Shown here: piece by piece, positions 1,728 through 24,852 of the stretch | Layout of the letters: every line of letters begins with the position of its first letter | Position numbering within the stretch: position 1 is the stretch's first letter | IMG/VR virus record: IMGVR_UViG_3300031974_002909 | Location: 1-25,127 of that record | DNA length: 25,127 bases | Source of the DNA: a virus | Reading direction: 5' to 3' (one strand) | Made by a program: the position numbers and the translations under genes | The notes under the pieces: model-generated | Told to the model about the DNA's origin: nothing | The model's database searches: none | What the model saw: the letters and a program-made list of their open reading frames with translations, nothing else

Positions 1728-2053
1728 TCTTCTTCGGGTTCAGGGAAATATTCAGGATGTAGTTCTTTGCATTTATCTGTCCACTCTTTAATAGCAGAGC
1801 TGTTGCCAAATACATGGAGTCCTGGAGGTGGGCACCAAATCATATGGTCATCCCATGATGGCTCAACCTCGGCACTCCACAGCACATCAACGTGATATGT
1901 GGTTGACATTACTGGGGGATTCTCTTCGTCACCAGGAGTCTCTACAATGTGACCAAGCTCTACTACAGTATGGGGATGCTCTTCTCCTAAAGCAGTGATA
2001 GCTGCCTTGGCTGTATCAGCATCTACGAATTGGTATTTACGGAATGTTCTCAT
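1724..2053 (-). CDS. Small acidic protein of the tail-fibre operon (unknown, 109 aa)
   Basis: I start this gene at the ATG at 2053, because it forms an ATGA overlap with the stop of the upstream 595-aa gene (2050-2053). The frame stays open to a TTG at 2071, which is less likely. The product begins MRTFRKYQFVDADTAKAAI, has a beta-like middle (STTYHVDVLW) and ends in a run of acidic residues (HPEYFPEPEEE). I do not recognise the family. The small size, acidic tail and location between a fibre gene and another small gene suggest a fibre-assembly or accessory protein. Confidence 0.75.
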   Translation of the reverse strand: MRTFRKYQFVDADTAKAAITALGEEHPHTVVELGHIVETPGDEENPPVMSTTYHVDVLWSAEVEPSWDDHMIWCPPPGLHVFGNSSAIKEWTDKCKELHPEYFPEPEEE

Positions 2054-3837
2054 GTTGTCAAGGTAATACAATCAGCGTCAGAGAGGGGATCATCAAATAC
2101 TAAGAAGCTTTTTAAATTTGTTGGAGACTGAATTGTAAAATCTATTCTACCTAGATTATACGCTGTTAAACCTGAAGCACTACGTTTAGTAGTAATTCCA
2201 TTGAATCTGATAAACATATCATACGACCCGTCTCCATTTGCTCTAAATACTACCTTACCAGTATCACTACGATTAGCATCTACATTAGTACCAAATGCAT
2301 ATGTACTATCTTCATTAAAGTAAGGTGTTATGACATGTTCACCATTCCTTGTAAACATTCTGAAACTTTGATAGATTGCAGTATTCGCAAAATCTTTTAG
2401 ATTCAGAAACTGTTCATTTGAGACTAAAGGCATGTTGTCTAAGTGCAATTCAAAGAATACAGTAAACGTATTGTTTGATGTAGGATCTATGGTTTGAAGT
2501 GGAATACTATCATTGCTCCTAGTAGCAGTAGCACCATAAGTGGAAATGTAGGATGTGGGGTAAGAACCTTGTTCTAGTTGCATCGCTGTAGCAAATACTG
2601 AAGAAGAACCATCTCGATCTGCATTTATATTATTATCTGTTTCTGCAGGGGCAATTTTAGTATTTACCACACCTGTGTTATCGGCAGTAAAAACCATTAT
2701 ACATCTATACCACCCATTTCCAAAGGATTCAATACTACCTGTTGCACCACCGCTTTCAGTTCCTACCTGTCCTGTAGACAAATTAAACCAGACACGCTTA
2801 TCAGAACTTGTTGCCGCACCATCAAATGAAAAGTATATAAAATTTAATTGGTCTGCTTTTGCAAAAATAGAAGCCGTGTAAGTAGTAGAAGCCGTTAAAC
2901 TAATAATTTGGAACAAAGCAAGTCTACCATTACCCCCCGAGTTAGAGTCTATTATTTGACTTACTCTAACACCCTCTATTGGACAAGTAGTATTTGAAAA
3001 ATTTACTAAAGTAGAAGAGTTCTTTGAATGGCCGTTTAAGTATTCTGATTGAGTAATCAAATTAGTTCTACTCGGCTCCATCAACAATGATGGTGTGCCA
3101 CCAGTGTAGTCTATTCTTGGTAGGGCTTCTAGGATACCAGCAAGTCCACCAGTAACATAATCTACTTTGTCTATATACTCTGTAGCTACTAAACCATACT
3201 CTGCTTGAAAGTTTTGTATGTAAACAAAATCTCCACTAGTTCCTCCAGCAACTCCTGGGGTCCCATCAGTTGTTGGATAGAATCTTACCTCTGTGTTGTT
3301 AAAGTATGCTGTCAATGAACAACGATACCAACCGTTACCAACGCTTTCTATTTTAGAATCTAATAAAGCGGAACCTTGAGTGTAGGTTACACTACCGTTT
3401 CCAGTTAATTCGAAATAAACTTGATTACCACCAGTAGTCCAAATAACAAAGTAACTTAGGCTACCTGCCTTTACATAAAGGCTGTAAGTAAATACAGCGG
3501 TTCCTAAACTACCGGACTCTAACCATCTCAAGTAATCTCCTGAACTAGTGCTTTTGATTAGTTTCCAAGCATTATTGGTTCCATCATAACCAGCCTCTCC
3601 TGAAGAAACAGTAACACCAAAAGAAGTCTTACCTATACTAAAATTATTGGAGAAGCCTACAAAATTTTCTCTACCCTTTTTAATCAGACCATTCTCATCT
3701 ACTCTTGTAGCAGCAAGGTTGGATCCTCTAGTAAATGTAAAGTCACCACTACCATCTGTAGGTTTGATAGAATACAACTTACCATCCTTGATACCATCTG
3801 GTACTAACGCAAGACTTGCTTTATCAAATACTCCCAT
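2050..3837 (-). CDS. Tail fibre / carbohydrate-binding-type protein (595 aa)
   Basis: The N-terminal 55 residues (MGVFDKASLALVPDGIKDGK, then DGSGDFTFTRGS and ENGLI) form a leader I know from fibre-like proteins of marine and Bacteroidota phages. Two jelly-roll-like repeats follow, each with the motif NGWYRC: about residues 60-225 (GNGWYRCSLTAYF) and 265-440 (GNGWYRCIMVFTA). Each repeat ends in a Q-x-E-x-G segment (QAEYGLVATEYI and QLEQGSYPTSYI). They are joined by a linker with RIDYTGGTPSLLMEPSRTNL. Residues about 445-595 look like a LamG-type beta sandwich (TVFFELHLDNMPL). This architecture fits glycan or receptor binding at the virion surface. It starts one base after the 1212-aa gene ends. 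No catalytic residues are evident. Confidence 0.85.
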   Translation of the reverse strand: MGVFDKASLALVPDGIKDGKLYSIKPTDGSGDFTFTRGSNLAATRVDENGLIKKGRENFVGFSNNFSIGKTSFGVTVSSGEAGYDGTNNAWKLIKSTSSGDYLRWLESGSLGTAVFTYSLYVKAGSLSYFVIWTTGGNQVYFELTGNGSVTYTQGSALLDSKIESVGNGWYRCSLTAYFNNTEVRFYPTTDGTPGVAGGTSGDFVYIQNFQAEYGLVATEYIDKVDYVTGGLAGILEALPRIDYTGGTPSLLMEPSRTNLITQSEYLNGHSKNSSTLVNFSNTTCPIEGVRVSQIIDSNSGGNGRLALFQIISLTASTTYTASIFAKADQLNFIYFSFDGAATSSDKRVWFNLSTGQVGTESGGATGSIESFGNGWYRCIMVFTADNTGVVNTKIAPAETDNNINADRDGSSSVFATAMQLEQGSYPTSYISTYGATATRSNDSIPLQTIDPTSNNTFTVFFELHLDNMPLVSNEQFLNLKDFANTAIYQSFRMFTRNGEHVITPYFNEDSTYAFGTNVDANRSDTGKVVFRANGDGSYDMFIRFNGITTKRSASGLTAYNLGRIDFTIQSPTNLKSFLVFDDPLSDADCITLTT

Positions 3838-3838
3838 C

Positions 3839-6800
3839 TTAAATGCTGTCTATTATAGTTAATGTATTTGTCTGACCTGCTGCTAACGTACCACCATCTG
3901 CCAATACTCTAGTTGAGTATGGTGTGTAGATTGGGTGATAGTTCTTTTGCAGGTAGTCATACACTTGTTGCTTCTGAGCTGCAGTCAGCTCATCAGTGTA
4001 AGCAAGAATGTTGTGAACTTGGTTTGGAACAACAAAGTGTGCAAATAGTCTGTGGAGGTATTCGTAGTCATACCAGCTCTGATACATATCTGCAAACGTG
4101 ACATCTTTCAGAGTAGGCATCTGAATAACTCTAACTGACTCTATATATATCAGATCCTCAAAGGCGTCGTTGTTTATTGTAAAGTCGGTACCATTAAGAC
4201 CTTGCAGTCGTAATGAGATAGTACTACCACCAACATCAGTCAGTGTAAATGGCCCAAACATTTCTTTTCTCCAAGCACCAACAGCATCTGATGTAATGCT
4301 AACATTTGCTTGCGGGAAGTTAAATGGGTTTGAAGAATCTTGTGCACCCCAACCAGTCCATACTCTAAACCCATTGATTTGATTGTTGGTCGAAGGAAGC
4401 AAGAACCTTACCTCTGCATAGAATACCTGGTTACTACCATCTACGTTTGTTCTTAGCTCAAGAATGTTATCCATACTTGTAAGAACACCGTGCTGTAGGT
4501 TTGTACCGCTAGCTGCAGTGTAACGCAGACAGTTATCAAAGCTAGTAGCGGCATCATCAGTTACACCATCTATATTAGCTGCTACTGAACCATTTGCACC
4601 AACTATTGCTGCAAAACCATCAGTCGTTGATGAAAAGTCTGAAGTATACCTTTCTGCATTTTTAGTAAAGAATGGTGCAGTTGTAAACTGACGATTCAAT
4701 ACTTCAAAGGTTGCAGTGTGAGGAAAGTTTATCTCTGTCTCAGCATCATTGTGCCATTTGCCAGCAGGGTTATCACTAACCTTTGTGTACCCAGAAATAG
4801 TTGGGTTCAATCCAAGAGGCACTCTTTGAATAATAGTACCCGTTGCATCATCATCGTATAAGCTAAACCCTTTCTTGAGGTTCCAGTGGAACTGATCTTG
4901 CTTGATCCAGAAATCAGATAGAGTGGCGTTGACTATTGTACCATGATTGTTATTACCAGACACATCATAGACTGTGGACCCATTACCTGCACTTGGTACT
5001 AAAAAAATCTCAAGACTATCTGTATCCATGTTGTATGGATCAATAGCTCTTGCTTCCTCAATAGTCATCGCTTTACTGTGTAGTGATGCCCAAGCAAGAG
5101 TTCCTCCAAGACCTGGACCACTATACCTTTTACCAATCATATCGTAAGGAGCAATAGCTCCAGATTGAGCAGGATCTGTAGTTACAGTTCTTGAGTCATT
5201 CTCTACTACGAACGATATGGTGTTTGCTGAATCGTTTCTAATGATGGAAAACTTCTGCCATTTATCAACCACTTCTTCATCTGGGATATGAGGGCTGAAA
5301 TTATATATGCCACTATGACCAGCAGCATAGTAGTAAAGCCTTTGATCACTAAAAAATAAAAGTCCTTGCGAAGTATTATTATCTGTAAATAATTCTCTGT
5401 TTGTACTAGCTCCAGCTAATGAACTATCTAGGTAAGCATAGAAGGTCATAGTAAAATCACTCACATTGATTTGACTAAAGTCAACCTTGTGAGGTGTATC
5501 TAAATACGCACCGTTACTATTAACCAGACTAAGAGGTTGTGCTACCTGTCCTTTGTAGGTTAGTGGGTTACCGAGTACATCCTCATCTACACTCTCGAAG
5601 AATATCTTGGTTACATTGCCCGTACCTGTGTTTGTAATATTGACACCACCATTGAAGTCATTGGCACCATTCCATACGGTGCCATCACTTAGCTTGAGGT
5701 AGGCAAGAATAAAGTCAGTGCTGTATGTCTGAGGAAAGAATCTATCAAAGGTATAGGTACCTTCGTTTCCTAGAGTTCCGGCGCTAAGATTGTGACTTAC
5801 AATTAAATTACCATCTCTATCAAAAAGATCTAATTGTCCAACAGTTCCCGAAGTACCAGCCGGTGCCTCTACAGTTTTAGTTACCTTAAGTAAATAAAAA
5901 TCATTGTTAGGTATATCTATGCTAGCTACAACCGTTCTCATTTGATTCTGACCACCATTGGGCCCAAAGAATCTAAAGTCTACCCCTGACGCTATATTAG
6001 CAAAAAACTGAGAGCCTCCGCTAGTATGTGTAGCCCAACTCCCTGTTTCACTATCAGGTTCACCAGTGCCTACTGTAGCAATACCAAACTCCATCCAGTC
6101 TCCAGGATTAGTAAGACCAGCAAATGCAGTGTTTAAGTCTATGAAGTTATTAGCATGATCCGGGATATAGTAAGCATACTTACCAGCATTGTATAAAGGA
6201 ATGTCTGTCACCCTTGGTCTTGGTATATAGACATTTGGTTGAGTGATGACTATGTTTTTGAAATAAACTTTTGCGCCATCATCATCAATTGTATTGCCAC
6301 CCGATGCCGTTTGTATACGCAGTTGAATAGAAGTAGTTACTGCCGTTCCTCCTGTCACGCTCATTGTTTGCCAACTACCTGTCACATTGGTGTTTGTTTG
6401 AGTTGCACCCGACAAACCTGTCACTTGTAATTGACCTATCTGTGACCCCGATGGAATGTAGTAGTCAAATTCAACTTTATGCTCTTGACCATTTTGATAT
6501 ACAAATGATTTAGTAATTTGATGAACTTGACTGCCATTTGTAAGTTCTACCTCAAGAGCGTTCTCAACCCCTAAAATTGTTACCCCTCCTGTTGATATAG
6601 TATCATCATTGCTCCATCCATCTACTCCACTTGAAAAGTCAGATGTGTACATATTTAAAGGAGAATACCCATCTGTATTTAAGAATGTACCTTGATCACC
6701 ATTTGTGATTCTTATATCCTCAACACGGAAGGTTGATATAGTGGCATTGTTGATAGTACCGTGGAAGTTATTCATCACACGGTTGTAGCAGATAGTACCC

Positions 6801-7477
6801 GCACCTTCTTCAAAGGCATACTCACCTATAACAATGTTATCTTCTTTGATTTTTAGATATCCCAGGATACCATTGAAGTAGTTTCCTAATGTGGTATACC
6901 TTCTACCAAGCATTATTAGACCCGCACCAGCAATGGCGGATGTAGGAGTTATGGTAAGATTAGTAGCTCCGTTTACTGTAAGTGTTGCAGTATTATCGCT
7001 GTAGCTGATAACAAGGATATACCTTGTGTTTGTTTCAACAGCAAATGAGGTATCTCTACCAACGACGTCTCCTACTCGAAGGCCAAACCTCCAGTCAGAA
7101 CTATAGTTTTCAATTCTAAGCTGAATACCTGCAGCTTGACCTGCATCATCTGTACAGAAGATGTCCTGAGTACCTACAATTGAGTTTCCTGTAATTATCT
7201 CAAGAGTAACCTCAAAGCTAGTTGGAGTATCTGTTGACGGATAAGTTTTTGAGATTGATACATAATCAGTACTATCCGTAAACTGCAATGCACGGGCTTT
7301 GTGCCAAGTACGAGAGGTATCTACATCAGGGGTCTCATCTATGACTTCAGTATCACCTATGTTTTTCTTGTGAAACCAGGCACCACTGAGTAGGTCAAAC
7401 GATAGCTTTTTTAGCTTATTGACACCAGAGCTAAATCTACGATGCCACCAAGGATGGGGGCCATTTAATGCTTTCAT
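3839..7477 (-). CDS. Large tail-fibre/adhesin-type protein with two LamG + CBM-like modules (1212 aa)
   Basis: After a basic N-terminal segment (WWHRRFSSGVNKLKKLSF), about residues 62-250 form a LamG/concanavalin-like domain (ALQFTDSTDYVSIS to NNFHGTINNATI). Residues about 275-410 form a CBM4/9-like sandwich beginning YTSDFSSGVDGW. Residues 430-640 are another beta region. A second LamG-like domain lies at about 646-845 (ending NNNHGTIVNATL) and a second CBM-like copy at about 943-1110, beginning YTSDFSSTTDGF. The C-terminus (AYTDELTAAQKQQVYDYLQK) resembles the end of a LamG unit and may be the operon-facing tip. The ATG at 7477 overlaps the upstream stop as ATGA. The protein probably binds host capsule or surface glycans. 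No hydrolase motif is seen. Confidence 0.85.
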   Translation of the reverse strand: MKALNGPHPWWHRRFSSGVNKLKKLSFDLLSGAWFHKKNIGDTEVIDETPDVDTSRTWHKARALQFTDSTDYVSISKTYPSTDTPTSFEVTLEIITGNSIVGTQDIFCTDDAGQAAGIQLRIENYSSDWRFGLRVGDVVGRDTSFAVETNTRYILVISYSDNTATLTVNGATNLTITPTSAIAGAGLIMLGRRYTTLGNYFNGILGYLKIKEDNIVIGEYAFEEGAGTICYNRVMNNFHGTINNATISTFRVEDIRITNGDQGTFLNTDGYSPLNMYTSDFSSGVDGWSNDDTISTGGVTILGVENALEVELTNGSQVHQITKSFVYQNGQEHKVEFDYYIPSGSQIGQLQVTGLSGATQTNTNVTGSWQTMSVTGGTAVTTSIQLRIQTASGGNTIDDDGAKVYFKNIVITQPNVYIPRPRVTDIPLYNAGKYAYYIPDHANNFIDLNTAFAGLTNPGDWMEFGIATVGTGEPDSETGSWATHTSGGSQFFANIASGVDFRFFGPNGGQNQMRTVVASIDIPNNDFYLLKVTKTVEAPAGTSGTVGQLDLFDRDGNLIVSHNLSAGTLGNEGTYTFDRFFPQTYSTDFILAYLKLSDGTVWNGANDFNGGVNITNTGTGNVTKIFFESVDEDVLGNPLTYKGQVAQPLSLVNSNGAYLDTPHKVDFSQINVSDFTMTFYAYLDSSLAGASTNRELFTDNNTSQGLLFFSDQRLYYYAAGHSGIYNFSPHIPDEEVVDKWQKFSIIRNDSANTISFVVENDSRTVTTDPAQSGAIAPYDMIGKRYSGPGLGGTLAWASLHSKAMTIEEARAIDPYNMDTDSLEIFLVPSAGNGSTVYDVSGNNNHGTIVNATLSDFWIKQDQFHWNLKKGFSLYDDDATGTIIQRVPLGLNPTISGYTKVSDNPAGKWHNDAETEINFPHTATFEVLNRQFTTAPFFTKNAERYTSDFSSTTDGFAAIVGANGSVAANIDGVTDDAATSFDNCLRYTAASGTNLQHGVLTSMDNILELRTNVDGSNQVFYAEVRFLLPSTNNQINGFRVWTGWGAQDSSNPFNFPQANVSITSDAVGAWRKEMFGPFTLTDVGGSTISLRLQGLNGTDFTINNDAFEDLIYIESVRVIQMPTLKDVTFADMYQSWYDYEYLHRLFAHFVVPNQVHNILAYTDELTAAQKQQVYDYLQKNYHPIYTPYSTRVLADGGTLAAGQTNTLTIIDSI

Positions 7478-15042: not shown

Positions 15043-15064
15043 TTTTCATTACGTCTATATACTA

Positions 15065-15097
15065 ATACCCTGGTTTACACCGGGGTATTTTTGTTTT
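15065..15097 (+). terminator. Rho-independent terminator after the packaging/portal block
   Basis: ATACCCTGG (15065-15073) pairs with CCGGGGTAT (15080-15088), nine base pairs with one G-T, around a six-base loop, followed by a T-rich tract (TTTTTGTTTT). It sits between the basic protein and the scaffold gene. TATTTTTG at 15086-15093 also fits TAnnTTTG, so a promoter may overlap the U-tract. Confidence 0.75.
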
Positions 15098-15114
15098 GAC
15101 GAAAATTTATAATT

Positions 15115-16272
15115 ATGGCTCAAAGTAATACCAGCGACACCGAAGTGACATTCGACCTCGCAGAACTTCTTGGAACTGAGGACAATACTGGCGGAGGGGA
15201 TCCTACCCCTGATTCAGGAACACCCGCACCAGCAGACCCTCCATCAGAACCAAGTGATCTTATTGAACTCCCCGATGACTTATCAAAGCTTGACGACTTT
15301 GGTGGGCAAACTTCTGGACAATCCAACAGTACTGAGCCGGGGGCTTCTGATTCAACAGAATCACCGTTTGAAGTCGTCGCTCAAATGTATGTTGATAAGG
15401 GGGCCCTTAGTCCAGATGACCTGAAAGAAGTCACTAAAGACGTAAGTGACCTTTCAGAGTTGTACGACCGGATTGAAGCAAAGCGCCAGGATGGTGCTAT
15501 GAGTCGTTTGACCCCACTACAGCAGCAAGCAGTTAAAGCCTTTGAAGCAGGTGTTGATGTTCAGGTCTTTCAAGACAATCGCAGAGAGCGTGAGGTTCTT
15601 GACAAGATTACTGACAAAGTACTTGAAAGTAATGAAGATCAATATGAGATTCCAAAGCGCAGGCTGATTGCTCAACAGATGGTTAAAGTCAAGAACTATT
15701 CTGAAAAAGATGCAGATACTCTGGCTCGGGCTATATCTAAGGAAGATTTAGCTCAGGCTTCCAAGGAAGCTAGAGATGCCATGAAAGGTTGGTACGATGA
15801 TCAGATTCAATCTCAGATTGATGAAGAAATTCAGAATAAAGCAACCGAGGTTGAAAATACCAAGAAGGTTGCTGATGACGTAAAGACCAAGGTTGAAAAA
15901 GCTGATAAGCTCTTCGGACTCAAGGTTACCGATCAGCTTCGTGATAGCATTATGGAATATGCCACGAAGAACTACGGTACCGAAAACAAGCCGATGAACT
16001 ATCTGCAGGCAGAGCTTGAAAAAGATCCTGTGGATACAACGGTTAAGATCAACTGGATCTTGGCAATGACCAAGGGCCTTACCGATCTGACACCATTGCT
16101 TAGTAAATCGGCGAGTAATGCTACCAAAGCACTTGACCAGATTATTAGTCAAGGTAGCCGAGGCAGCGCTACCGGCGGACGTGCAACTGCACCTCAGTCA
16201 GGTAGTTCGAATAACCCTGATAACGCATTCCAAGGTATCGAAGGTGCTTTGGAGTTATTGTTTGACAAGTAA
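15115..16272 (+). CDS. Capsid scaffold-like protein (385 aa)
   Basis: Placed between portal and MCP, where scaffolds usually lie. The first 95 residues are disordered, acidic and Pro/Ser/Gly-rich (SGTPAPADPPSEPSDLIELP). From about residue 95 the protein is almost all helix with strong charge alternation (DNRREREVLDKITDKVLESN; EEIQNKATEVENTKKVADDV), probably a coiled coil. The C-terminus has a Gly/Ser/Ala linker (SQGSRGSATGGRATAPQSGS) and a short helix (FQGIEGALELLF) that could bind the capsid shell. No protease triad is visible, so fusion to a maturation protease is unlikely. The A-rich leader follows the terminator directly. The scaffold assignment rests on position and composition. Confidence 0.7.
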   Translation: MAQSNTSDTEVTFDLAELLGTEDNTGGGDPTPDSGTPAPADPPSEPSDLIELPDDLSKLDDFGGQTSGQSNSTEPGASDSTESPFEVVAQMYVDKGALSPDDLKEVTKDVSDLSELYDRIEAKRQDGAMSRLTPLQQQAVKAFEAGVDVQVFQDNRREREVLDKITDKVLESNEDQYEIPKRRLIAQQMVKVKNYSEKDADTLARAISKEDLAQASKEARDAMKGWYDDQIQSQIDEEIQNKATEVENTKKVADDVKTKVEKADKLFGLKVTDQLRDSIMEYATKNYGTENKPMNYLQAELEKDPVDTTVKINWILAMTKGLTDLTPLLSKSASNATKALDQIISQGSRGSATGGRATAPQSGSSNNPDNAFQGIEGALELLFDK

Positions 16273-16304
16273 ATATAAACCCCGACTAATCTAAAACCCG
16301 ATCT

Positions 16305-17810
16305 ATGCAAGTTAGTCCCTTTCAGGTTACGGAGGCCAAAGCAATGGCAGGCCTCGTTCGTAACAACCACTTCCACTCGCTGTATGAGGTTGCTCCTCAG
16401 TACGCTGGTAAAGTGATGAACAAGATGCTGTCCAACAAGTACGGCAGCAACATTGAAACGTACCTCGATGGTTTGCCATCTGAGACGTTCGAAACCGATG
16501 ACGATTATTTCTGGAAGCTCCAGGGTGATCACAACCGGAACATCGAACTGGTCAGTGGTAGCTGGAAAGGTGCTGCAATCACTGGTTCAACCACCCGTGT
16601 TGGTGCAAACCACATGCCTTTTGAACTGACTTTCCCCGAGAAGTGGTTCGACGAAGGTCACGTAATCGTTGGTGAGAAGAACGAAATCTATCCGATCTAC
16701 ATCGAGTCTGTTCGTCGCGGTGCCGCTGAAGAGTGGATCTACACTTGTGTATCTGCACTGTCTAGCCCTGATGGAATCCCAGGTTCTGAACTGACTGCTG
16801 GTAAGTTGTTCAGCATTGAATTCTCTCCAGTAGAGAGCACAATGTCCATTCGTGGTACTGGTATCCGCCGGGTGACTCCTATCGAATTCCGCAACGGTTT
16901 CACAACTGTTCGTAAGGAGAACTCCATTCCTGGTAACATGAAGTCTCGGAAGCTGGCTACTGCTTTCCCTGATCCTCGGAATGACAAGGCCATCGTCTCT
17001 TGGATTGAGTACGAAGACTTCATTCTTGAGTATGAGTTCATGGAGGAAAAAGTTAAGGCCATGTACTATGGACGCAGCAACCGCGATGCGGAAGGTCGTT
17101 CTTACATGACTGGTCCTTCTCAGAATGAGATCTTGATCGGAGCTGGTCTTCGTGAGATGATGGAGGTTTCTAACGTGTACTACTACACTGACTTCCAGCT
17201 GAGCACTCTCGAGAATGCGCTCTTGACTCTGTCTGAAGGTAAGCTCGGAATGGACGAGCGTGTATTCATGCTCCGTACTGGTGAGCGTGGTGCTAAGCAA
17301 TTCCACGAAGCTGCCAAGGCTGAGGCTACAGCTTGGACTCAAACTGGTAACAGCATTGTTCGCGATACTAACGCTGGTGCTTCTTACCGTCCAACAAGCA
17401 GTCCTCTGCACTCTCAGGCATATCAAGGTGGATTCCAGTTCACTGAGTGGTTGTTCGCCAACAGCATCCGTGTGATCGTTGAGGTTGACCACAACTACAG
17501 TGACCAGGTACGTCACAAGATCAATCACCCTGACGGTGGTAAGGCCGAGTCTTATCGTTACGACATCTTTGATATCGGAACTGTACAAGGTCTTCCTAAC
17601 ATGCAGAAGGCATACGTCAAGGGAGCTGAGTACATCCGTGGTATCGAAGAAGGTCTGAGATCACCATTCTCTGCTGACTCCGGAACAAACTATAACAAGA
17701 TGGCAAACCGCAAGGATGCCTGGACTGTTACCTTGTTCTGTCAGTTCGGTGTGATCCTTCGCGATCCAGAGCGTACTATGAGTCTCATCCCTAACATCCT
17801 GTCTGCGTAA
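16305..17810 (+). CDS. Major capsid protein (501 aa)
   Basis: Size, position after the scaffold and internal patterns fit the HK97-fold major capsid proteins of crAss-like and related Bacteroidota phages, which are about 490-510 aa. The N-arm (MQVSPFQVTEAKAMAGLV) is followed by E-loop-like and P-domain segments (YGSNIETYLDGLPSETFETD; EIYPIYIESVRRG). The A-domain end shows NYNKMANRKDAWTVTLFCQF and DPERTMSLIPN, conserved-looking C-terminal features. There is no Ig-like decoration insertion. The 5' leader shares TCTAAAAC with the 411-aa structural gene. Base usage (GC-richer, uniform codons such as CGT, GGT, AAG, AAC) differs from the AT-rich fibre genes, as expected for the most strongly expressed gene. 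Confidence 0.88.
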   Translation: MQVSPFQVTEAKAMAGLVRNNHFHSLYEVAPQYAGKVMNKMLSNKYGSNIETYLDGLPSETFETDDDYFWKLQGDHNRNIELVSGSWKGAAITGSTTRVGANHMPFELTFPEKWFDEGHVIVGEKNEIYPIYIESVRRGAAEEWIYTCVSALSSPDGIPGSELTAGKLFSIEFSPVESTMSIRGTGIRRVTPIEFRNGFTTVRKENSIPGNMKSRKLATAFPDPRNDKAIVSWIEYEDFILEYEFMEEKVKAMYYGRSNRDAEGRSYMTGPSQNEILIGAGLREMMEVSNVYYYTDFQLSTLENALLTLSEGKLGMDERVFMLRTGERGAKQFHEAAKAEATAWTQTGNSIVRDTNAGASYRPTSSPLHSQAYQGGFQFTEWLFANSIRVIVEVDHNYSDQVRHKINHPDGGKAESYRYDIFDIGTVQGLPNMQKAYVKGAEYIRGIEEGLRSPFSADSGTNYNKMANRKDAWTVTLFCQFGVILRDPERTMSLIPNILSA

Positions 17811-17835
17811 GTAGAGAGTGTTACGGAAATTGTTG

Positions 17836-17843
17836 TATTATTG
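17836..17843 (+). promoter_or_regulatory. Possible -7 element upstream of the post-MCP gene
   Basis: TATTATTG within TTGTATTATTGTA repeats the 13-base core seen at 7850-7862 before the nuclease gene. The ATG at 17867 lies 24 bases downstream. No TTTG is present 21 bases upstream, so it is a weaker candidate. Confidence 0.35.
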
Positions 17844-17866
17844 TAACGACGTTATAATAAACAACA

Positions 17867-18796
17867 ATGGCTCAACAGAGAAAATCCAAGTCGGCTAGTC
17901 AAACAGCAGTTGCTGAGGCTACGCCGACTTTTTTATTGCCTGACAAAACCGTAAAGATCGAACTGGTTGAGAAGGCACCAATGTTCATCAGAGAACAACG
18001 AACTCGTTTTAATCCATTCACTAAAGGTCTTGGTGATAAGACTGCTATTGAATATGATCTTCCTAAGTCTAGTGCAGGCGGTAGGATAAATCCTTTCAAC
18101 AGTACTGAGGAGCGTGAGTACCTTGAGGAAAGATTGTATCACGAGAAGGGTTGGCTTGATGTTCGTAATCGTAACAGTACTTTCTGGAAAGACTACCGGA
18201 TTGCCTTGGGTAAACTCGGTCGTGTCCTTAAGCTCAATCAACCAGAGGATTACTTGTTCTATCTGGTGGCCAGAGCTCAGAAAGATCTTGTTGCCCCAAG
18301 TGAGGATGAGTACCGTAACAATCCGAAGGCAACTTACAAGTTCATGATCGTTGATCAAAGCCTCCGTGATCGCAGAGAGGCTGAGAGCATTACTACCAAG
18401 TCTGAGGCATACGTGCATTTCAACAAGCTCAAGAACAACGCGACTATGCTGCGTCATATCTTGATCGAAAGCATGGGTGGTTCAAGGCTTCCAACCGGTG
18501 CAAACAACCACAGCTGGTTGATCAAAGAGATTGACAAGCTGGTTGATGCAGAGCCTACTAAGTTCCTGGAGATTGCCGGTGATCCTAATCTGGAGGTACG
18601 GGCGTTTATTCATGACGCAGTACAGCTGCAGGTTCTGGAAAGAATGAATGGTCTGTACTATACCAAAGACGGTAAGCCACTTGCACTTGCGGGAGGAAGT
18701 TCCGATCTTCGTGGTGCCGTAGACTTTTTGATCGATGACAACAACAACGAGTTGTATCTCACTCTTCAAAGTCAGGTAGAAAAAGCCCGTGAATAA
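17867..18796 (+). CDS. Conserved phage structural-region protein, role unknown (309 aa)
   Basis: A Ser/Lys/Ala-rich start (MAQQRKSKSASQTAVAEA) precedes a segment I recognise as recurring next to MCP genes in Bacteroidota phages. Its members carry a run such as FNPF...AIEYDLPKSSAGG followed by INPFNSTEEREYLEERLY. The middle holds FWKDYRIALGKLGRVLKLNQ and PEDYLFYLVARAQKDLVAPS. The rest is helical, with repeated acidic and basic heptads (KEIDKLVDAEPTKFLEIAGD). The C-terminus DNNNELYLTLQSQVEKA is helical. The function in published families is not known to me. Location between MCP and ring protein suggests a virion or head-completion role. It ends in TAATG shared with the next start. Confidence 0.72.
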   Translation: MAQQRKSKSASQTAVAEATPTFLLPDKTVKIELVEKAPMFIREQRTRFNPFTKGLGDKTAIEYDLPKSSAGGRINPFNSTEEREYLEERLYHEKGWLDVRNRNSTFWKDYRIALGKLGRVLKLNQPEDYLFYLVARAQKDLVAPSEDEYRNNPKATYKFMIVDQSLRDRREAESITTKSEAYVHFNKLKNNATMLRHILIESMGGSRLPTGANNHSWLIKEIDKLVDAEPTKFLEIAGDPNLEVRAFIHDAVQLQVLERMNGLYYTKDGKPLALAGGSSDLRGAVDFLIDDNNNELYLTLQSQVEKARE

Positions 18797-19551
18797 TGAC
18801 TGCTACTGAGTTTGATGACGAATTTCTATTGAACTACCAATATGCCGGGGGCAATTCAGCTCCCGGCTTTAATGCTTATGCGAGGAGTTTGTTCCTCTCG
18901 CGTGCGCAGGAAGAGTTGGTAAAAGATGCTTACAGACAGAGATCCAATACAAGGCTCGAAGGTTTTGAAGCAAGTGAGACACGTCGTCGTCAACTCTCTA
19001 ACTTGGTTAAGCAGGAGATCATCCTACCTGGTCAAGCGGTTCCTTACAATGTGAACTTTAACATTAGCCCAGACTCTCAGATCTTCAATAACCTTGATCT
19101 GAATAAAGTCTTGCGTATTGTGTCTGAACACATTGATGTGGACCCAGCAGTCTGTGGTAAAAAGCAGTTACCGGTATATGCAATAACTCATGATGAGTAT
19201 TCTAGCTACGTAGGAGATCCTTTTCGTAAGCCTACTAAGGATCATGCGTGGCGTTTGGATACTGGGGTATTTGATGATATCAATAATAGTTTGGAACTTA
19301 TTACAAATGTTTCTTATATTCGCTATGTCTTACGATATATTCGTCGTCCAAGACCCATCATAGTCGCTGATCTCAGTAATCTTAGCGGTGTTGCGTACTC
19401 AATTGATGGCGAGACGTCGGTTCAAACTTCAGAACTTATTGAAGGGTTCCATCCCGAAATCGTCACCAGAGCGGTGCAAAACGCCCTTGAAGCTGTTGGC
19501 GACCCAAGGTTCCAGACGCACTTTATAGCGAAAGACAACAGAATTGAATAA
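18796..19551 (+). CDS. Ring/adaptor-like neck protein (251 aa)
   Basis: The pattern FDDEFLLNYQYAGGN, then SLFLSRAQEELVKDAYRQ, closely follows the crAss-like ring protein 1 / head-tail connector family. Typical members read FNKYFN...LNEAQEELVKEFY, then a Pro-rich beta part. The second half reads PVYAITHDEYSSYVGDPFRK, HAWRLD, YIRYVLRYIRRPRPIIV, ending in a helix (HPEIVTRAVQNALEAVGDPR), all consistent with that family. These proteins dock below the portal and seal the neck. It starts at the A of the preceding TAA stop. Family assignment is by memory of the pattern rather than a search. Confidence 0.78.
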   Translation: MTATEFDDEFLLNYQYAGGNSAPGFNAYARSLFLSRAQEELVKDAYRQRSNTRLEGFEASETRRRQLSNLVKQEIILPGQAVPYNVNFNISPDSQIFNNLDLNKVLRIVSEHIDVDPAVCGKKQLPVYAITHDEYSSYVGDPFRKPTKDHAWRLDTGVFDDINNSLELITNVSYIRYVLRYIRRPRPIIVADLSNLSGVAYSIDGETSVQTSELIEGFHPEIVTRAVQNALEAVGDPRFQTHFIAKDNRIE

Positions 19552-19576
19552 CTAACCCAACTCTAAAACTAAAATC

Positions 19577-20812
19577 ATGAGTTATCTTGAAGGCGCACCC
19601 TCGCGCTTCGTCCTTGTCGGGACACAGTATGAAGACCAATCTGGAGCCACAGTTGATGCCGATGCGGCTGGAACTGCCGGTGACATCACTCTCTTGGACA
19701 AAGACGGTGGAGGTTTTGACAGCTCTGGAGCCAATTCTAATGGAGACGGTATTGCTCTCCGTTTGGTTACAGATAATCAAGAAGTAGGCGCTAGCCTTTC
19801 TTCTGATATCTTGACTCCAGTATTCTCAGCAGCTGACGTTGTTAAGTACCCATCTGCTGTAACTGCTTTCGCTCAACCTAAAGTACATATTCAGGAACTT
19901 GATCTTTCTGGAATGACTATTACTGCTGGCGAAGTCTTTATGATGAATGTTCGCTACCGCAACGTAGGTGCTGTATCTGATGGTCGTTTCTTTGACGTAT
20001 GGGCTGATCACACTGTTGTTACTAATACAGCAGTAGCTGTTGCTTCTGGTTTGGCTACTCAGTGGAACAAGACCAACGACAAGCGTAAGGTTGATAGCGC
20101 TACTGCTTATGTAGGAGCCGCTCTTACTAACTTTACCTCAAAGATCAACAGTGCTAGCCACTTTGAAGTAACTACTGGTTCCAAGACCGTTACTCAATAT
20201 AACGCACTGAGCGGTGGAGCACCTGTAAATACTACTGCTGGTGCTTTGACCATTTTGGTAAACATTGGTGGGGTTCCTTACAACATGACTACTGCCGGTG
20301 GTGTAGCTACATGGACTCTTGATCGTCCATACGAAGGATCTGACTCTGCTCGTTTGGCCGCTGCTGTATTTACTGCAACTGGTGCTGGTAAAGTTTTCTT
20401 GATCGGAGACATTCAGTCTAAGATCGACTTTAACCACCCCTTCCGCCCAATCGATTTCGATACTACTATGACAGTAGATGGCGATGAAGCCACTGGTTTG
20501 GTTACTGTTGATACTCAGCAGGCTGACATTGGAAACGGTTACGGTCCTCACGTTGCAGTTATCGAAGAGTTGAGCCTCGCTCAGTTCTCTGGTCTGATGT
20601 GGACTGAGTATCGTCGGATGCGTACTCGCCGGTTGGAGACTGTTTCAACTAAGCAGTACGATCAGTTCAGCATTACTCTGCGTAAGAATACCGCACAGTA
20701 TCCAGGATCTGTTGTAAACAGCGAAGCTGAGATTACAGTATTCATCCCTCGGGATGCTGGTGCTGGAAACACAGCTGCTGATCTGTTGACAGACATCCAG
20801 GCTAACGACTAA
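19577..20812 (+). CDS. Beta-rich structural protein, possibly tail tube or decoration (411 aa)
   Basis: The sequence is dominated by Gly, Ala, Thr, Val and Ser with short alternating hydrophobic strands. There are acidic Gly-rich loops (DKDGGGFDSSGANSNGDG), an insertion-like beta region (VNTTAGALTILVNIGGVPYN), and near the C-terminus a conserved-looking segment (YRRMRTRRLETVSTKQYDQF followed by SEAEITVFIPRDAGAG). It is flanked by its own leader (shared TCTAAAAC motif) and a strong terminator, so it is likely made in large amounts. That would fit a tail tube, a capsid decoration or a major neck protein. I cannot decide between them, and there is no tape-measure gene nearby to settle the tail type. 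Confidence 0.72.
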   Translation: MSYLEGAPSRFVLVGTQYEDQSGATVDADAAGTAGDITLLDKDGGGFDSSGANSNGDGIALRLVTDNQEVGASLSSDILTPVFSAADVVKYPSAVTAFAQPKVHIQELDLSGMTITAGEVFMMNVRYRNVGAVSDGRFFDVWADHTVVTNTAVAVASGLATQWNKTNDKRKVDSATAYVGAALTNFTSKINSASHFEVTTGSKTVTQYNALSGGAPVNTTAGALTILVNIGGVPYNMTTAGGVATWTLDRPYEGSDSARLAAAVFTATGAGKVFLIGDIQSKIDFNHPFRPIDFDTTMTVDGDEATGLVTVDTQQADIGNGYGPHVAVIEELSLAQFSGLMWTEYRRMRTRRLETVSTKQYDQFSITLRKNTAQYPGSVVNSEAEITVFIPRDAGAGNTAADLLTDIQAND

Positions 20813-20831
20813 TCGTTACGCCTTTTGTAAC

Positions 20832-20862
20832 AAAAGCCTCAGCAACCGCTGGGGCTTTTTTT
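20832..20862 (+). terminator. Strong Rho-independent terminator after the 411-aa structural gene
   Basis: AAAAGCCTCAGC (20832-20843) pairs with GCTGGGGCTTTT (20848-20859), twelve base pairs with one T-G around an AACC tetraloop, and ends in a T-run. Just upstream, CTTTTG-TAA-CAAAAG (20822-20836) can form a competing hairpin that shares the AAAAG strand. Confidence 0.85.
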
Positions 20863-20863
20863 A

Positions 20864-20871
20864 TATCTTTG
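20864..20871 (+). promoter_or_regulatory. Bacteroidota-type -7 element for the Cys-rich gene
   Basis: TATCTTTG directly follows the terminator U-tract and matches TAnnTTTG exactly. The same eight bases form the -7 element of the leftward fibre operon. Transcription would start near 20877, placing the ATG at 20887 about ten bases downstream. A -33 TTTG at 21 bases is absent. Confidence 0.5.
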
Positions 20872-20886
20872 ATAAAAGCGAAGTCC

Positions 20887-21375
20887 ATGGCATCCATTTA
20901 TGTCGAGTTTGAGAAAGATTACTCTGAACTCCACGTTATCTCCGATATAGATTTAAGTCCTGAAGGCCCTTTGGATTTGTATCACAACAACGTAAAAAAA
21001 GAGTCTTTTGCAACCCCAACTCTGGCAATGAGTTATCTTCAGACTACTTTCGGGGCTCGATATGTATTTACGATTACTCCTACAATGATCGGAGAGTCTA
21101 CATTCAGTGATGGAATCTGGCATGTTGTTTTCAACGGTAGTAGTGAATTAGTAGCTGGTGATCCCAAGATGAAATGTCTTTGGTGCGCACTTGCTAAGAT
21201 GCTGAATGGCGACTGTGACTATACTGCTGACATTGAGATCGTAAATAAGATCCATGCATACATGGTTGTTGCTGAGGGTGCCACAAGGGTTAAAGACTTT
21301 GAAAAGGCTTACAGCTCATACAGCATAGCCAAGGGATACGCTGACCCATATAACTGTGATTGTACTGCATCATGA
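20887..21375 (+). CDS. Cys-rich structural-region protein, possible metal site (162 aa)
   Basis: I use the ATG at 20887 (MASIYVEFEKDYSELHVISD); the upstream TTG at 20869 lies inside the predicted promoter. The N-terminal half is beta-rich (GARYVFTITPTMIGESTFSD; IWHVVFNGSSELV). The C-terminal half has five cysteines: Cys97 and Cys100 in KCLWC, Cys110 in LNGDCDY, and Cys157 and Cys159 in NCDC. This CxxC...C...CxC spacing could bind zinc or form a disulphide-linked tip. Related small Cys-containing proteins occur in neck regions of Bacteroidota phages, but no function is known to me. It is coupled to the next gene by an ATGA overlap. Confidence 0.7.
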   Translation: MASIYVEFEKDYSELHVISDIDLSPEGPLDLYHNNVKKESFATPTLAMSYLQTTFGARYVFTITPTMIGESTFSDGIWHVVFNGSSELVAGDPKMKCLWCALAKMLNGDCDYTADIEIVNKIHAYMVVAEGATRVKDFEKAYSSYSIAKGYADPYNCDCTAS

Positions 21376-21749
21376 GTGTTACGAATCTAAACCTGGATGC
21401 AACTAAGGATGTAAATATCACATTTACAAAGGGGTATACCTTTGATGTTTACCTACGCCTTTCTAAGAAGAACACTGATCCAGTTGAGTATTACGATCTA
21501 ACTCAGTACACATTTGAGCTGAAGTGTAAGTTTTCAAGCTACGATGAAAGTGCAGCCTGGCAGTTCAATACTTCTGAAATTACACAGAACGCAAATGGCG
21601 AGCTGTTCCTTCGTAAAGAAGCTGCTGTTACAAATCTGATCAATCCGGCTACATACGTATATGAACTACGGGCTACCAAGACATCTGATGGAACAAGCTC
21701 AAGGATCATGGCTGGTAAGATGATCGTTAAAGACGCAGTAAATGATTGA
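21372..21749 (+). CDS. Small beta-domain virion protein, BppU-like (125 aa)
   Basis: I start at the ATG at 21372, which forms an ATGA overlap with the previous stop. The first half reads MSVTNLNLDATKDVNITFTK, then GYTFDVYLRLSKKN and YYDLTQYTFELKCKFS. That resembles the N-terminal beta domain of BppU-type baseplate/fibre-base proteins (KGDTFxxxLxL...YDLTGYTFxxxV). The second half (LFLRKEAAVTNLINPATYVY, then SRIMAGKMIVKDAV) completes a compact sandwich. The likely role is an adaptor for the downstream SGNH tail protein. Alternatively it is a head fibre base. Confidence 0.68.
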   Translation: MSVTNLNLDATKDVNITFTKGYTFDVYLRLSKKNTDPVEYYDLTQYTFELKCKFSSYDESAAWQFNTSEITQNANGELFLRKEAAVTNLINPATYVYELRATKTSDGTSSRIMAGKMIVKDAVND

Positions 21750-21819
21750 AGAGTTTGATCTTGAAATAGTTGTACGCACATTTGATCCTGAAATTCAGAT
21801 CAGCGCGTACTCATCATAA
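21742..21819 (+). CDS. 25-aa mini-ORF resembling the N-terminus of the next gene
   Basis: An ATG at 21742, overlapping the previous gene by eight bases, opens 25 codons ending in TAA at 21819. The product starts MIEEFDLEIVVRTFDPEIQI. The next gene starts MTEFDIQIANRGIDPHVEIV. Both share EFD-[LI]-[EQ]-I, then R-x-[FI]-DP and a following hydrophobic-x-I. The likeness suggests duplication followed by truncation, or a real mini-protein with a shared docking motif. Its coupling to the previous stop favours translation. The only strong evidence is the similarity. Confidence 0.42.
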   Translation: MIEEFDLEIVVRTFDPEIQISAYSS

Positions 21820-21835
21820 GTAGTTTCATACTACA

Positions 21836-22153
21836 ATGACTGAGTTTGATATCCAAATAGCTAACCGTGGGATCGATCCTCACGTTGAGATAGTTATTGC
21901 AGAAGCTGGTCAGATAACCATTGTTTCTGCACCAACAGCTGGTACCGATGACGAACTTCGGCCCAGTGTAGGAGGTCAAACAAAAACACTTTACTTTGCT
22001 TCAACGGCTGCACTTAGAGTATACATAAGTACTTTGAGCGGTAGCAGCTATCGTTTTGGTTGGATTGTTGATGACGACGATGGCTTTGGTCCGGCAAACG
22101 GATTCTTTGATGGTACCGATATCCACTACAATGTGGCAATAATTATTACTTAG
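21836..22153 (+). CDS. Small virion-region protein of unknown function (105 aa)
   Basis: The protein begins MTEFDIQIANRGIDPHVEIV, the same motif as the 25-aa ORF just upstream. The rest is beta-like and Gly/Ser/Asp-rich: TIVSAPTAGTDDELRP, LYFASTAALRVYISTLSGSS, FGWIVDDDDGFGPANGFFDG. An acidic DDDD turn could bind calcium. There are no membrane or signal segments. It lies five bases before the 897-aa tail protein and may be a fibre-attachment or cap protein. I do not recognise a family. Confidence 0.7.
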   Translation: MTEFDIQIANRGIDPHVEIVIAEAGQITIVSAPTAGTDDELRPSVGGQTKTLYFASTAALRVYISTLSGSSYRFGWIVDDDDGFGPANGFFDGTDIHYNVAIIIT

Positions 22154-22158
22154 AACTC

Positions 22159-24852
22159 ATGGGAAGATTACTAGACGTAGCTACGCAATCGATCAAAGAA
22201 AAGATTCAGCTTGAAGGCAGGCCTGTAAATCTTAGCGTTGCTTTGGAAGGTGATGCTTCGGCTTTACCTACAAACTCTTCACCACCTCCATTGTACTTTG
22301 ACATTGTTGCTGGTGTTATTGATATTGCGGTAGGTCGTGCATTAATGACCAACTCAATTACCATTACATCAAACGCCAAAGGCAGAGTCTCAGGAGTTAT
22401 TGCTCAGAATGGTATTGGTGACTGGATTGGTCTGTCTAATCAAGATGAGTTTTCATTAGCTGTTAGCGAAGGGGGTTCGACCACTCTTAACTTTGATGGC
22501 TTTATACTTGGTCCTGGCTCTAGAGTTTCTTTAACGTTTACACCATATCCTGTGGCGGGTCAAACCGATCCGGATATTGGTATGCACATTAACGGAATTG
22601 AGTTTACAGCAGACTTTAATTTTACTGCAACCAAGAGACTTCTTTACTGTGGCGACTCTATATCCTGGAGCCTTGTGGGCAACTGGAAGACACAGGACAT
22701 GGGTTACAATTATACCGGTAACCGTAAAGAAACCAGTAATCCATATCCAGAATATTTTGGTGACGAGCTTGCTTCATTTAGATTGGTAAATGCTCTGAGG
22801 AGTAAGGCTACTCCTGAGAGTATACGTCTTGTAAACAAGGGCTTTGGTGGTTCTAAGCTTGCTACCGATCAGTGGTTTGCATCAAGGTCCGGACTGTATA
22901 CTCTTCCTTGGAACTTAATGGTAATGCAGGCAGGGGTTAACGATGCCACTGATGTACAGACACCATTGCGTCAACTGACCATGGCTCAAAGAATACAGGA
23001 CATGGTGACCAAGCGTAACAACGATGGTCGCAAAAATTACCCTATGGTATTCTGTACACCACCATCGGTAGACGATAGGTATGATGGTGTGTCATCGAGA
23101 GTTTGCTTAGACCAGCGTGTACCCATTGCAAGTGAGAGTTACACGGCTTCGTTTGACAGTACATCCGTTTCAGTAATTGACTTTGGAACCCCTTCTGGTG
23201 ATTTTTGGTATGAGATCAAGGGTGATGGTTCTAATGACCTTGAGATGCAAGGAGGTGTTAATGGTCAAGTTTATAGGCTTGACTTTATAACTGACAACGA
23301 TCTACTTACCGGTGTGGCTGATGATGCTACAAATTCAAAAGCGTTTATCCGAACTCTTGAGTCTCAGCAGAACGTAGACGATTCTCCAATTACAAATACT
23401 GGCGTACTCAAAGTGGATGCTAACACTACGCTATTTATTCGTTGTGTAGTTACTGATGAAGAGTATGAAGAGGTTGATCGTGTAAGCCTTATTGGTAGAG
23501 CTTTAGCTGCTGATGCAAGTAAGTTTGATGCCTCAGAGTCTACAATAGATCACTTTATTACAAGTATCAATACAACGCCTACAGAAATCTTAGGTCCTAC
23601 TATTGAAGGAGTAAGTGAGTCAGTGAGTGTCATTAACGCTATTTCAAGTAGAAACATTACTCAATTTAGCTTTGGTGCTGCGTCAACTCTACCATTGTCG
23701 AATCTACCAGCTGCAAATGTTATTGATGAAAGTGATGTGTGGCTTAGGATCAAGAACATGCAGGACACCTCTACTGCCGGACAAACTAGTTGGTCAGATG
23801 TAAATGGTTTTTACAAAGTGGTGAATTACAATCTTTCGGGTAGTGGTCAGAGAATTGTGAACGTTCAAGTAATGCTTGATAGTAGAGATTCTTTTGACAG
23901 AAAGTTTGAAGGCAATTTTGGATTGACAGTGACTTCTATTTCGAAAGCTGCTAATGCAGTTGTAGATCTTAGCGCGGACTTGACAGGTAAGATTGTTGGA
24001 GATACAATTGCTTTAGGTGATGTAGAAGGCACTACTCCAGGTGGAGATTTTGAATCTAACGCTAACGGAGTTTTTGAAATTACTGCCATAAACTCATCTA
24101 CTCAGATTGAGATCGATCTTGATAGTTCAAGTTTTTCTGACACTTATGTAGCTAACTCAGGATATCTGAGTGGTGCAGAAGTTGAGATATTTAGTAGCCG
24201 TCCTTACTTAGCTGAGTTTGAAGGAACCGCCGGCAACACTTTAGTTGGCAATAACTACAGCTACTTTGCTCATGGCGATAATACCTATGATGACTACACG
24301 GTAAAGGTTCAGCTATCTACTGGTATTGGTACCCAGTACAATCTTGTCGAAGGTAATGGTATTGTGTTCTCTGTGTATCAGCAAGGTAACATCATATTTA
24401 TGAATGAGGTAGCTCGTGGTAATATTACTAACGCAGGGAAGATTGTTGGTAAAAACTCACTAAGTGATTTCTATTCACAGACTGAGGTAGGTTTGACCAG
24501 ACTAAAAACAGTTCGTAAGATAATTACCGATACTGTAACTAGTCTGAGTTCTGACAATGTACACCTTGTAGATCTTTACGAAATCACGGATCTTAAGTCA
24601 ACCACAGAAACAACTGCGGGTAGACTCGAGTATGGTAGTGCGAGTTACAAAGCTGATACAAGCTCAGGGAGTTCTTCTAAGTTGTTGATCAACGATCTTA
24701 TAGAAGATCCTGTATTCAAGGCTACAGGTGATTCAGGAGTTAACGAGAGAGTTATGGGTAAAAGACTACACAGGTCTCCCAAAGGACATGAGCTTTTATT
24801 CGAAAGACTAAATCAAGTTATCGGTGCAAGTAGCTTTACGATTCCTTCGTAA
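22159..24852 (+). CDS. Tail protein with SGNH/GDSL esterase domain split by a long insertion (897 aa)
   Basis: The first 150 residues are a beta-rich virion/anchor region. The SGNH core starts at RLLYCGDSISWSL: block I is Gly165-Asp166-Ser167, with Ser167 the nucleophile. Block II Gly is in NKGFGGSK (about 228-231). Block III is G259-V-N261-D262. After VFCTPPSVDDRYDG (about residue 305) the core is interrupted by about 450 residues of beta-rich repeat-like sequence. It resumes near 770 (FYSQTEVGLTRLKTVRKII; VHLVDLYEITDL) and ends with LHRSPKGHELLFERL, where His871 is the likely catalytic His. The usual Asp three residues before it is Lys868, so the enzyme may work as a Ser-His dyad. It probably deacetylates or de-esterifies host surface glycans. 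Confidence 0.85.
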   Translation: MGRLLDVATQSIKEKIQLEGRPVNLSVALEGDASALPTNSSPPPLYFDIVAGVIDIAVGRALMTNSITITSNAKGRVSGVIAQNGIGDWIGLSNQDEFSLAVSEGGSTTLNFDGFILGPGSRVSLTFTPYPVAGQTDPDIGMHINGIEFTADFNFTATKRLLYCGDSISWSLVGNWKTQDMGYNYTGNRKETSNPYPEYFGDELASFRLVNALRSKATPESIRLVNKGFGGSKLATDQWFASRSGLYTLPWNLMVMQAGVNDATDVQTPLRQLTMAQRIQDMVTKRNNDGRKNYPMVFCTPPSVDDRYDGVSSRVCLDQRVPIASESYTASFDSTSVSVIDFGTPSGDFWYEIKGDGSNDLEMQGGVNGQVYRLDFITDNDLLTGVADDATNSKAFIRTLESQQNVDDSPITNTGVLKVDANTTLFIRCVVTDEEYEEVDRVSLIGRALAADASKFDASESTIDHFITSINTTPTEILGPTIEGVSESVSVINAISSRNITQFSFGAASTLPLSNLPAANVIDESDVWLRIKNMQDTSTAGQTSWSDVNGFYKVVNYNLSGSGQRIVNVQVMLDSRDSFDRKFEGNFGLTVTSISKAANAVVDLSADLTGKIVGDTIALGDVEGTTPGGDFESNANGVFEITAINSSTQIEIDLDSSSFSDTYVANSGYLSGAEVEIFSSRPYLAEFEGTAGNTLVGNNYSYFAHGDNTYDDYTVKVQLSTGIGTQYNLVEGNGIVFSVYQQGNIIFMNEVARGNITNAGKIVGKNSLSDFYSQTEVGLTRLKTVRKIITDTVTSLSSDNVHLVDLYEITDLKSTTETTAGRLEYGSASYKADTSSGSSSKLLINDLIEDPVFKATGDSGVNERVMGKRLHRSPKGHELLFERLNQVIGASSFTIPS

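Follow-up and report, generated by a model that had tools for sequence, protein, structure and literature searches.

The sequence that we analyzed, referred to here as the window, is a stretch of 25,127 nucleotides of viral DNA (IMG/VR record IMGVR_UViG_3300031974_002909). Judged by its sequence, the phage from which the window derives is crAss-like (Crassvirales): its portal protein is 34-36% identical to those of crAss-like phages over 99% of the length, and its MCP and TerL are 41% and 34% identical, respectively, to those of phage phi14:2. The order of its genes, terminase-portal-MCP-gp33-ring-(auxiliary)-(hub), parallels that of phages crAss001 and phi14:2. Three small genes are the counterparts in position of crAss001 gp38 and gp39, the tail-fiber docking hub genes (PMC10172136), to which they had no significant sequence match, and their assignment to the hub is one of gene order only. 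The gene that follows them, which is the subject of this report, occupies the site that a virion protein with the annotation “pectate lyase” takes up in phi14:2. Crassvirales tail spikes are expected to recognize and digest host polysaccharide, and that region of the genome is highly variable (PMC10136315). We also noted two large tail-type genes on the minus strand of the window (2050-7477), divergent from the structural cluster, which may encode further adsorption proteins; one (595 aa) has matches to tail proteins in PHROGs and the other (1212 aa) has, by eye, LamG-like repeats.

The open reading frame of 897 aa is uninterrupted. A second, independent IMG/VR contig (L001/L021) carries the same ORF, likewise intact (100% identity in the search, 99.9% over the ORF), and in six other relatives (L002-L007) nearly the entire protein was covered without a frameshift. 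The frame of L007 ends at residue 878, where its contig ends, and the partial copies in L008 and L010 also stop at contig ends. An assembly chimera was rejected as the source of the gene, since the ORF is repeated in the independent contig and has full-length relatives. Relatives at 43-79% identity were collinear with the window protein, in a family sample that is small (~10 contigs in the collections searched). The protein was found in IMG/VR contigs only: tblastn searches of phage GenBank with the window protein and its relative from L019 gave no match, and no relative was found in the bacterial and archaeal genomes scanned. Searches of PHROGs with any segment of the protein, and of PDB sequences with the whole protein, a profile of its first half or the excised core described below, gave nothing meaningful, and there was no match in NCBIfam. 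A search for distant relatives with the C-terminal part of the insert and the first SGNH half recovered only the same family, and no trimerization or chaperone domain was found in the 897-aa protein. In L018, the gene lies between a GroEL-like gene (1192-2859, 555 aa, 34% identical to phi14:2 GroEL) and a 100-aa ORF (5353-5655) that is GroES-like by eye; the tail gene of the L018 phage may thus be flanked by a chaperonin pair of the phage's own.

Table 1. Features at the esterase locus; positions are those of the window and residues are those of the 897-aa protein.
Feature	Position	Strand	Basis
Second module type (~75 aa) in the 411-aa virion-position protein	20147..20371	+	47% identity, E 2.9e-15, to the L005/L023 insert module
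Small genes of 168, 129 and 105 aa, after the gene in auxiliary-capsid position and before the esterase gene	20869..22153	+	Position counterparts of crAss001 hub genes gp38/gp39
Whole gene: 897-aa split SGNH hydrolase, probable tail-fiber/spike receptor-binding enzyme	22159..24852	+	ORF and relatives
N-tip, residues 1-16, backbone-specific, probable virion docking tip	22159..22206	+	Identity contrast between backbones
N-terminal domain rich in beta-strands, residues 17-157	22207..22629	+	Alignment; low-confidence secondary structure
Putative SGNH domain, first half, residues 158-316	22630..23106	+	PF13472 E = 0.031 uncut; PF00657 after excision
Block I, GDS 165-167, nucleophile Ser167	22651..22659	+	Invariant
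Block II, NKGFGG 226-231, oxyanion Gly	22834..22851	+	Invariant
Block III, GVND 259-262, oxyanion Asn261	22933..22944	+	Asn invariant
Putative insertion in the SGNH domain, residues 317-774 (458 residues)	23107..24480	+	Excision restores full-length GDSL match; controls; none in gp25
Optional module of predicted FCCH fold nested in the insertion, residues 587-672	23917..24174	+	Presence/absence at the site; Pfam; AF2; Foldseek
Putative SGNH domain, second half, residues 775-897 (helix, VHLVDLY strand, His block, final helix)	24481..24849	+	C-halves of L018/L019 match PF00657 145-208
DLIEDPxFKxxGDxGxxE stretch 846-863, preceding the His block; may supply a substitute acid	24694..24747	+	D846, E849, D850, E863 invariant
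K-R-L-H 868-871: vacant Asp position and catalytic His871	24760..24771	+	Aligns with D-G-I-H of crAss001 gp25

Comparison of the uncut window protein with Pfam gave a weak match to Lipase_GDSL_2 (PF13472) and no match that passed a Pfam cut-off. With boundaries set by the alignment, residues 317-774 were then cut in silico out of the window protein and of its two most distant relatives, L018 and L019. After excision, the joined halves matched PF00657 from position 5 to position 208 of its 208 positions (4-207 for L019), with E-values of 4e-4 for the window protein (21.0 bits), 2e-5 for L018 (25.3 bits) and 7e-7 for L019 (30.0 bits). The curated cut-off of PF00657 is 23.6 bits, which the L018 and L019 cores exceeded and the window core fell just below. 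When each half was compared by itself with PF00657, the N-halves reached no further than profile position 93, and the C-halves of L018 and L019 matched positions 145-208 and 148-207; this half-by-half coverage puts the insertion at approximately profile position 130-145. With the first half joined to a shuffled second half, the PF00657 match was gone. The excision test and the shuffled control together exclude chance as the cause of the SGNH assignment. The insertion point lies after strand beta-4 (VFCTPP) and before the helix that precedes beta-5 (VHLVDLY). In crAss001 gp25 the blocks align with the joined halves and nothing is inserted at the junction. The direct comparison of an HMM of the joined core with gp25 was not significant (E 0.012 against one target), and the residue alignment was the sole use made of it. 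We read residues 158-316 and 775-897, on these profile comparisons, as one SGNH domain interrupted by the insert. The original prediction had proposed that, in this phage gene of the tail region, a large and beta-rich insertion splits an SGNH domain, and the excision, the half matches and the shuffled control all bore it out; the limits given for the insertion, 320-770, had to be moved to 317-774.

The insert had also been taken for one whole inserted domain. Large as it is, it proved to be composite, with ~370 residues that are common to all relatives and an optional module of ~86 residues at 587-672. This module is missing from that site in L004, L005, L018 and L019, and copies of it are found elsewhere, as an extra module near residue 43 of the N-terminal domain in L004, L007, L008 and L010, and in three places in L007. 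Modeled alone with AF2, the module had a pLDDT of 76, and the best Foldseek match of the model was the FCCH half-domain of ubiquitin-activating enzyme E1 (E 9.6e-4, TM 0.65), followed by the endosialidase of phage phi92 and the I-domain of the P22 capsid. In Pfam, the module copies matched DUF7243, E1_FCCH and End_beta_barrel, mostly under the cut-off: the best copy scored 20.4 bits against the 29.5 required for E1_FCCH (PF16190), and one L007 copy passed the cut-off of DUF7243 (32.0 versus 27). We assign the module a predicted FCCH fold on the basis of its model. The alignment of module copies was too diverse to be used for scanning, and a single-copy query recovered itself only. For the insert outside the FCCH module, no significant relative was found. 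A second, distinct module type of ~75 residues is present in the insert of the esterase of a sister phage (L005/L023; residues 358-432 in L023) and, in the window, in the 411-aa virion-position protein. The 411-aa protein itself diverges at this module between the window phage and the sister phage.

Comparison of the window with the sister contig L023 revealed ~92.5% DNA identity over 15044-23132, that is, to residue ~325 of the esterase, no alignment over the rest of the insert, and a return of similarity at 24373 (residue ~739). The same contrast was observed between the window protein and that of L005: amino acid identity is 93% for the first SGNH half, drops to 47% for the insert and is 76% for the second half. 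The inserted region behaves as an exchangeable cassette.

The gene as a whole is also found on different structural backbones. The window protein is ~77% identical to its counterpart in L024, a contig that its portal and terminase place in another lineage, one with relatives among Flavobacterium elemo and Cellulophaga phages, and it is 81% identical to its counterpart in L026, yet the capsid protein of L026 is only 41% identical to that of the window. Within the L024 lineage, the portal proteins are 97-100% identical and the esterase proteins are as little as 54% identical (best aligned segment). L020 and L018 represent further backbones, which brings the number that carry a relative to at least four. 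Residues 1-16 depart from this pattern, as they have 19% identity to relatives on other backbones, compared with ~77% for the rest of the protein, and 88% and 62% within the crAss-like contigs. An N-terminal tip that tracks the backbone in this way is the pattern expected of a tip that docks the protein to the virion. The products of the small gene directly upstream of the esterase gene (21836-22153 in the window; 5609-6013 in L024) differ between backbones except for their last ~31 residues, which are 51% identical. This conserved end adjoins the exchanged gene and may serve as a docking tail or mark a boundary of recombination.

We hypothesize, with a probability of roughly 60%, that the gene encodes a crAss-like adsorption protein that is a Ser-His polysaccharide O-acylesterase with a split SGNH domain and an exchangeable recognition insert. 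In this protein the N-tip would attach the molecule to the virion, and the two sequence halves would build a single catalytic domain from which the ~458-residue, beta-rich insert would project and recognize or position the host surface polysaccharide. Phages would swap the insert and the optional FCCH-fold modules as a cassette and retain the catalytic halves, and the swap would alter specificity and leave the chemistry as it was. Based on the crAss-like context, the position of the gene and the precedents for SGNH domains in phages, the enzyme would most likely be a polysaccharide O-acetylesterase used in adsorption. The original prediction had suggested that the insertion places a glycan-binding arm beside the active site. 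The cassette swap, a module of the FCCH or endosialidase-barrel type and the precedents discussed below are in keeping with such an arm; against this, most of the insert lacks a recognizable relative, and for that reason glycan binding is a role that we infer for it.

The insert could instead be mainly structural, its beta-domains forming a shaft or bridging the subunits of an oligomeric fiber with no direct role at the receptor. Folds similar to that of the 587-672 module are common in predicted phage proteins, including fibers, and FCCH-like domains are found in many structural proteins of phages, which differ in function (with matches to baseplate, fiber and capsid I-domain). The sharing of the ~75-aa module type with the 411-aa protein in the auxiliary-capsid position also points in this direction. 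A shaft placed within a catalytic domain would be unusual, however, and the N-terminal region could fill the role of a shaft. In addition, within a segment that is otherwise 92% identical, nothing is exchanged as much as the insert, and this fits a determinant of specificity rather than a shaft. We therefore consider a mainly structural insert to be unlikely.

Whether the protein is an active enzyme was considered from its catalytic residues. The motif blocks lay where they had been predicted from the sequence alone: GDS (165-167), then GFGG within NKGFGG and GVND within AGVND (258-262), all before residue 262 or ending at it, and the His block LHRSPKGH at 870-877. Block I has the GDS with its Ser, the oxyanion Gly and Asn of blocks II and III are invariant, and block V has its His. 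Across all relatives that cover them, down to 43% identity, there was no variation in Ser167, Gly230/231, Asn261, Asp262, His871 and His877, and no region of the protein is more conserved than the first SGNH half. The Asp of block V, which is canonical and not universal, is absent; the residue three positions before His871 is Lys868. The column reads K, K, K, R, K, E and S across relatives, which indicates that the Asp position is vacant throughout the family and that Lys is no fixed replacement. The K-x-x-H motif highlighted in the original prediction was thus correct in the loss of Asp and not meaningful as to the Lys, and Lys868 as a catalytic innovation was rejected because the residue is not conserved.

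The vacant position, where crAss001 gp25 has the canonical D, raises the alternative of a degenerate esterase in which catalysis was lost with the block V Asp and the SGNH domain persists only to present the inserted domains, whether as a scaffold or as a binder of lectin-like type. We regard this as improbable. The invariance of Ser167, Gly230/231, Asn261 and His871 and the high conservation of the first SGNH half argue against a loss of catalysis, as does the activity of other SGNH enzymes that do without this Asp, namely the Ser-His dyads of CE2 (PMC9487903) and the water-mediated triads of CE20 (PMC12313940). For the esterase that we favor, the missing Asp would probably be replaced by an acid of the stretch D846-E863, by a backbone carbonyl or by a residue of the insert. 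The stretch 846-863 is missing from crAss001 gp25 in the alignment, and D846, E849, D850 and E863 are candidates for the substitute acid because they never vary in the relatives.

An AlphaFold2 model of the full protein, made from a five-sequence alignment, had a pLDDT of 35, which is too low to inform on the fold or on a convergence of Ser167, Asn261 and His871, and only its pattern of helices and strands was used; the Foldseek matches of this model (rmsd 10-74) were discarded. In that low-confidence prediction, helix and strand alternate over 198-299 and 781-888, and 339-774 is nearly all strand. A further reading is that nothing is inserted: the region would simply continue the SGNH fold, or chance would have brought together two domains that are not related, with HRSPKGH a coincidence. 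This reading could account for the weakness of the SGNH similarity before excision and is very improbable, given that the C-halves of L018 and L019 by themselves match the final part of the GDSL profile, that the joined halves of three diverged relatives cover the profile from one end to the other, that the match is lost in the shuffled control and that, in the prediction, the alternation of helix and strand does not return until past residue 775.

If the split esterase with an exchangeable insert is correct, a recognition cassette that phages exchange can be housed within the fold of the enzyme domain of an adsorption protein. The design would be that of the hemagglutinin-esterases of animal viruses, with recognition and sugar deacetylation in one exchangeable unit, and the protein would add an SGNH family without the canonical Asp. 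Natural swaps are available, in which near-identical genomes combine the same catalytic halves with inserts that differ, or one insert type recurs on different backbones, and these could be used to test for changes of surface-polysaccharide specificity in crAss-like phages and their flavobacterial-phage neighbors.

SGNH domains in phage receptor-binding proteins are demonstrated esterases or deacetylases (PMC13123978, PMC9569702). In G7C gp63.1, Possum gp66 and the receptor-binding proteins of Klebsiella prophages, as in the window protein, the SGNH domain is part of an adsorption protein, with O-deacetylation a probable entry step, and the descriptions available report no inserted domain (PMC13123978, PMC9569702). 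The crAss001 protein gp25 (L029 2096-4444) is a tail-region SGNH protein from the same phage order, and its blocks align with those of the window protein. Its SGNH domain, in contrast, is uninterrupted and C-terminal (residues 608-767, PF13472 1-178) and has the canonical D-G-I-H, and the remainder of the protein is unrelated, with Mtd_N at the N-terminus. The deposited annotation of gp25 is tail hyaluronidase/tail fiber and does not name an esterase. As for the modules, that at 587-672 has the predicted fold of the FCCH domain, the endosialidase beta-barrel and DUF7243, and it differs from these in being nested in an esterase insert and in its variable occurrence at several sites. The BACON repeats of p-crAssphage tail proteins are likewise modular repeats of carbohydrate-binding type that come and go in the tail protein of a crAss-like phage, although they are a different domain and, as far as described, do not lie within an enzyme (PMC10136315).

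Precedents for the design are found outside phages. In HE/HEF, a discontinuous SGNH esterase encloses a receptor-binding R domain, which is a lectin (PMC9487903). The phage protein resembles these in having a sequence-discontinuous SGNH domain that encloses another domain and, probably, in being a virus surface protein with a cell-surface glycan as its target. HE/HEF differ in that they retain the Ser-His-Asp triad and act on the sialosides of animal cells, whereas the phage protein has no Asp at 868 and its insert is ~458 aa long, composite and exchanged as a cassette. That the phage protein is a true counterpart of the hemagglutinin-esterases, with a recognition module nested in the catalytic domain and swapped across backbones and with the contact to His supplied by the insert or by D846-E863, is a possibility that we put forward tentatively. 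In CE20 enzymes, known from the Bacteroidota (Flavimarina, Pedobacter), the SGNH domain is interrupted by an ancillary beta-sandwich, and Asp no longer contacts His directly (PMC12313940). Here, too, SGNH is split, by an insert predicted to be rich in strands, and the usual Asp-His contact is missing. CE20 enzymes differ in having a GQSNM block I, a DxH motif and flanking beta-sandwiches at both the N- and C-terminus; the phage protein has GDS (GDSIS) as block I, KxxH (KRLH), a larger insert and nothing after its SGNH domain. Since it has neither the motifs of CE20 nor the triad of HE, we assign the phage protein to neither family, alike as the designs are. In our search of the literature, which covered open papers only, no phage adsorption protein turned up for which a split SGNH domain had been reported. 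The original description of this protein as the least ordinary in the window is a fair one, qualified by the precedents for the split-with-insert design outside phages. Split SGNH domains with inserted beta-domains were already known from viral HE/HEF and CE20, and loss of the Asp from CE20 and from CE2, whose enzymes work without it (PMC9487903); what is new is the phage version.
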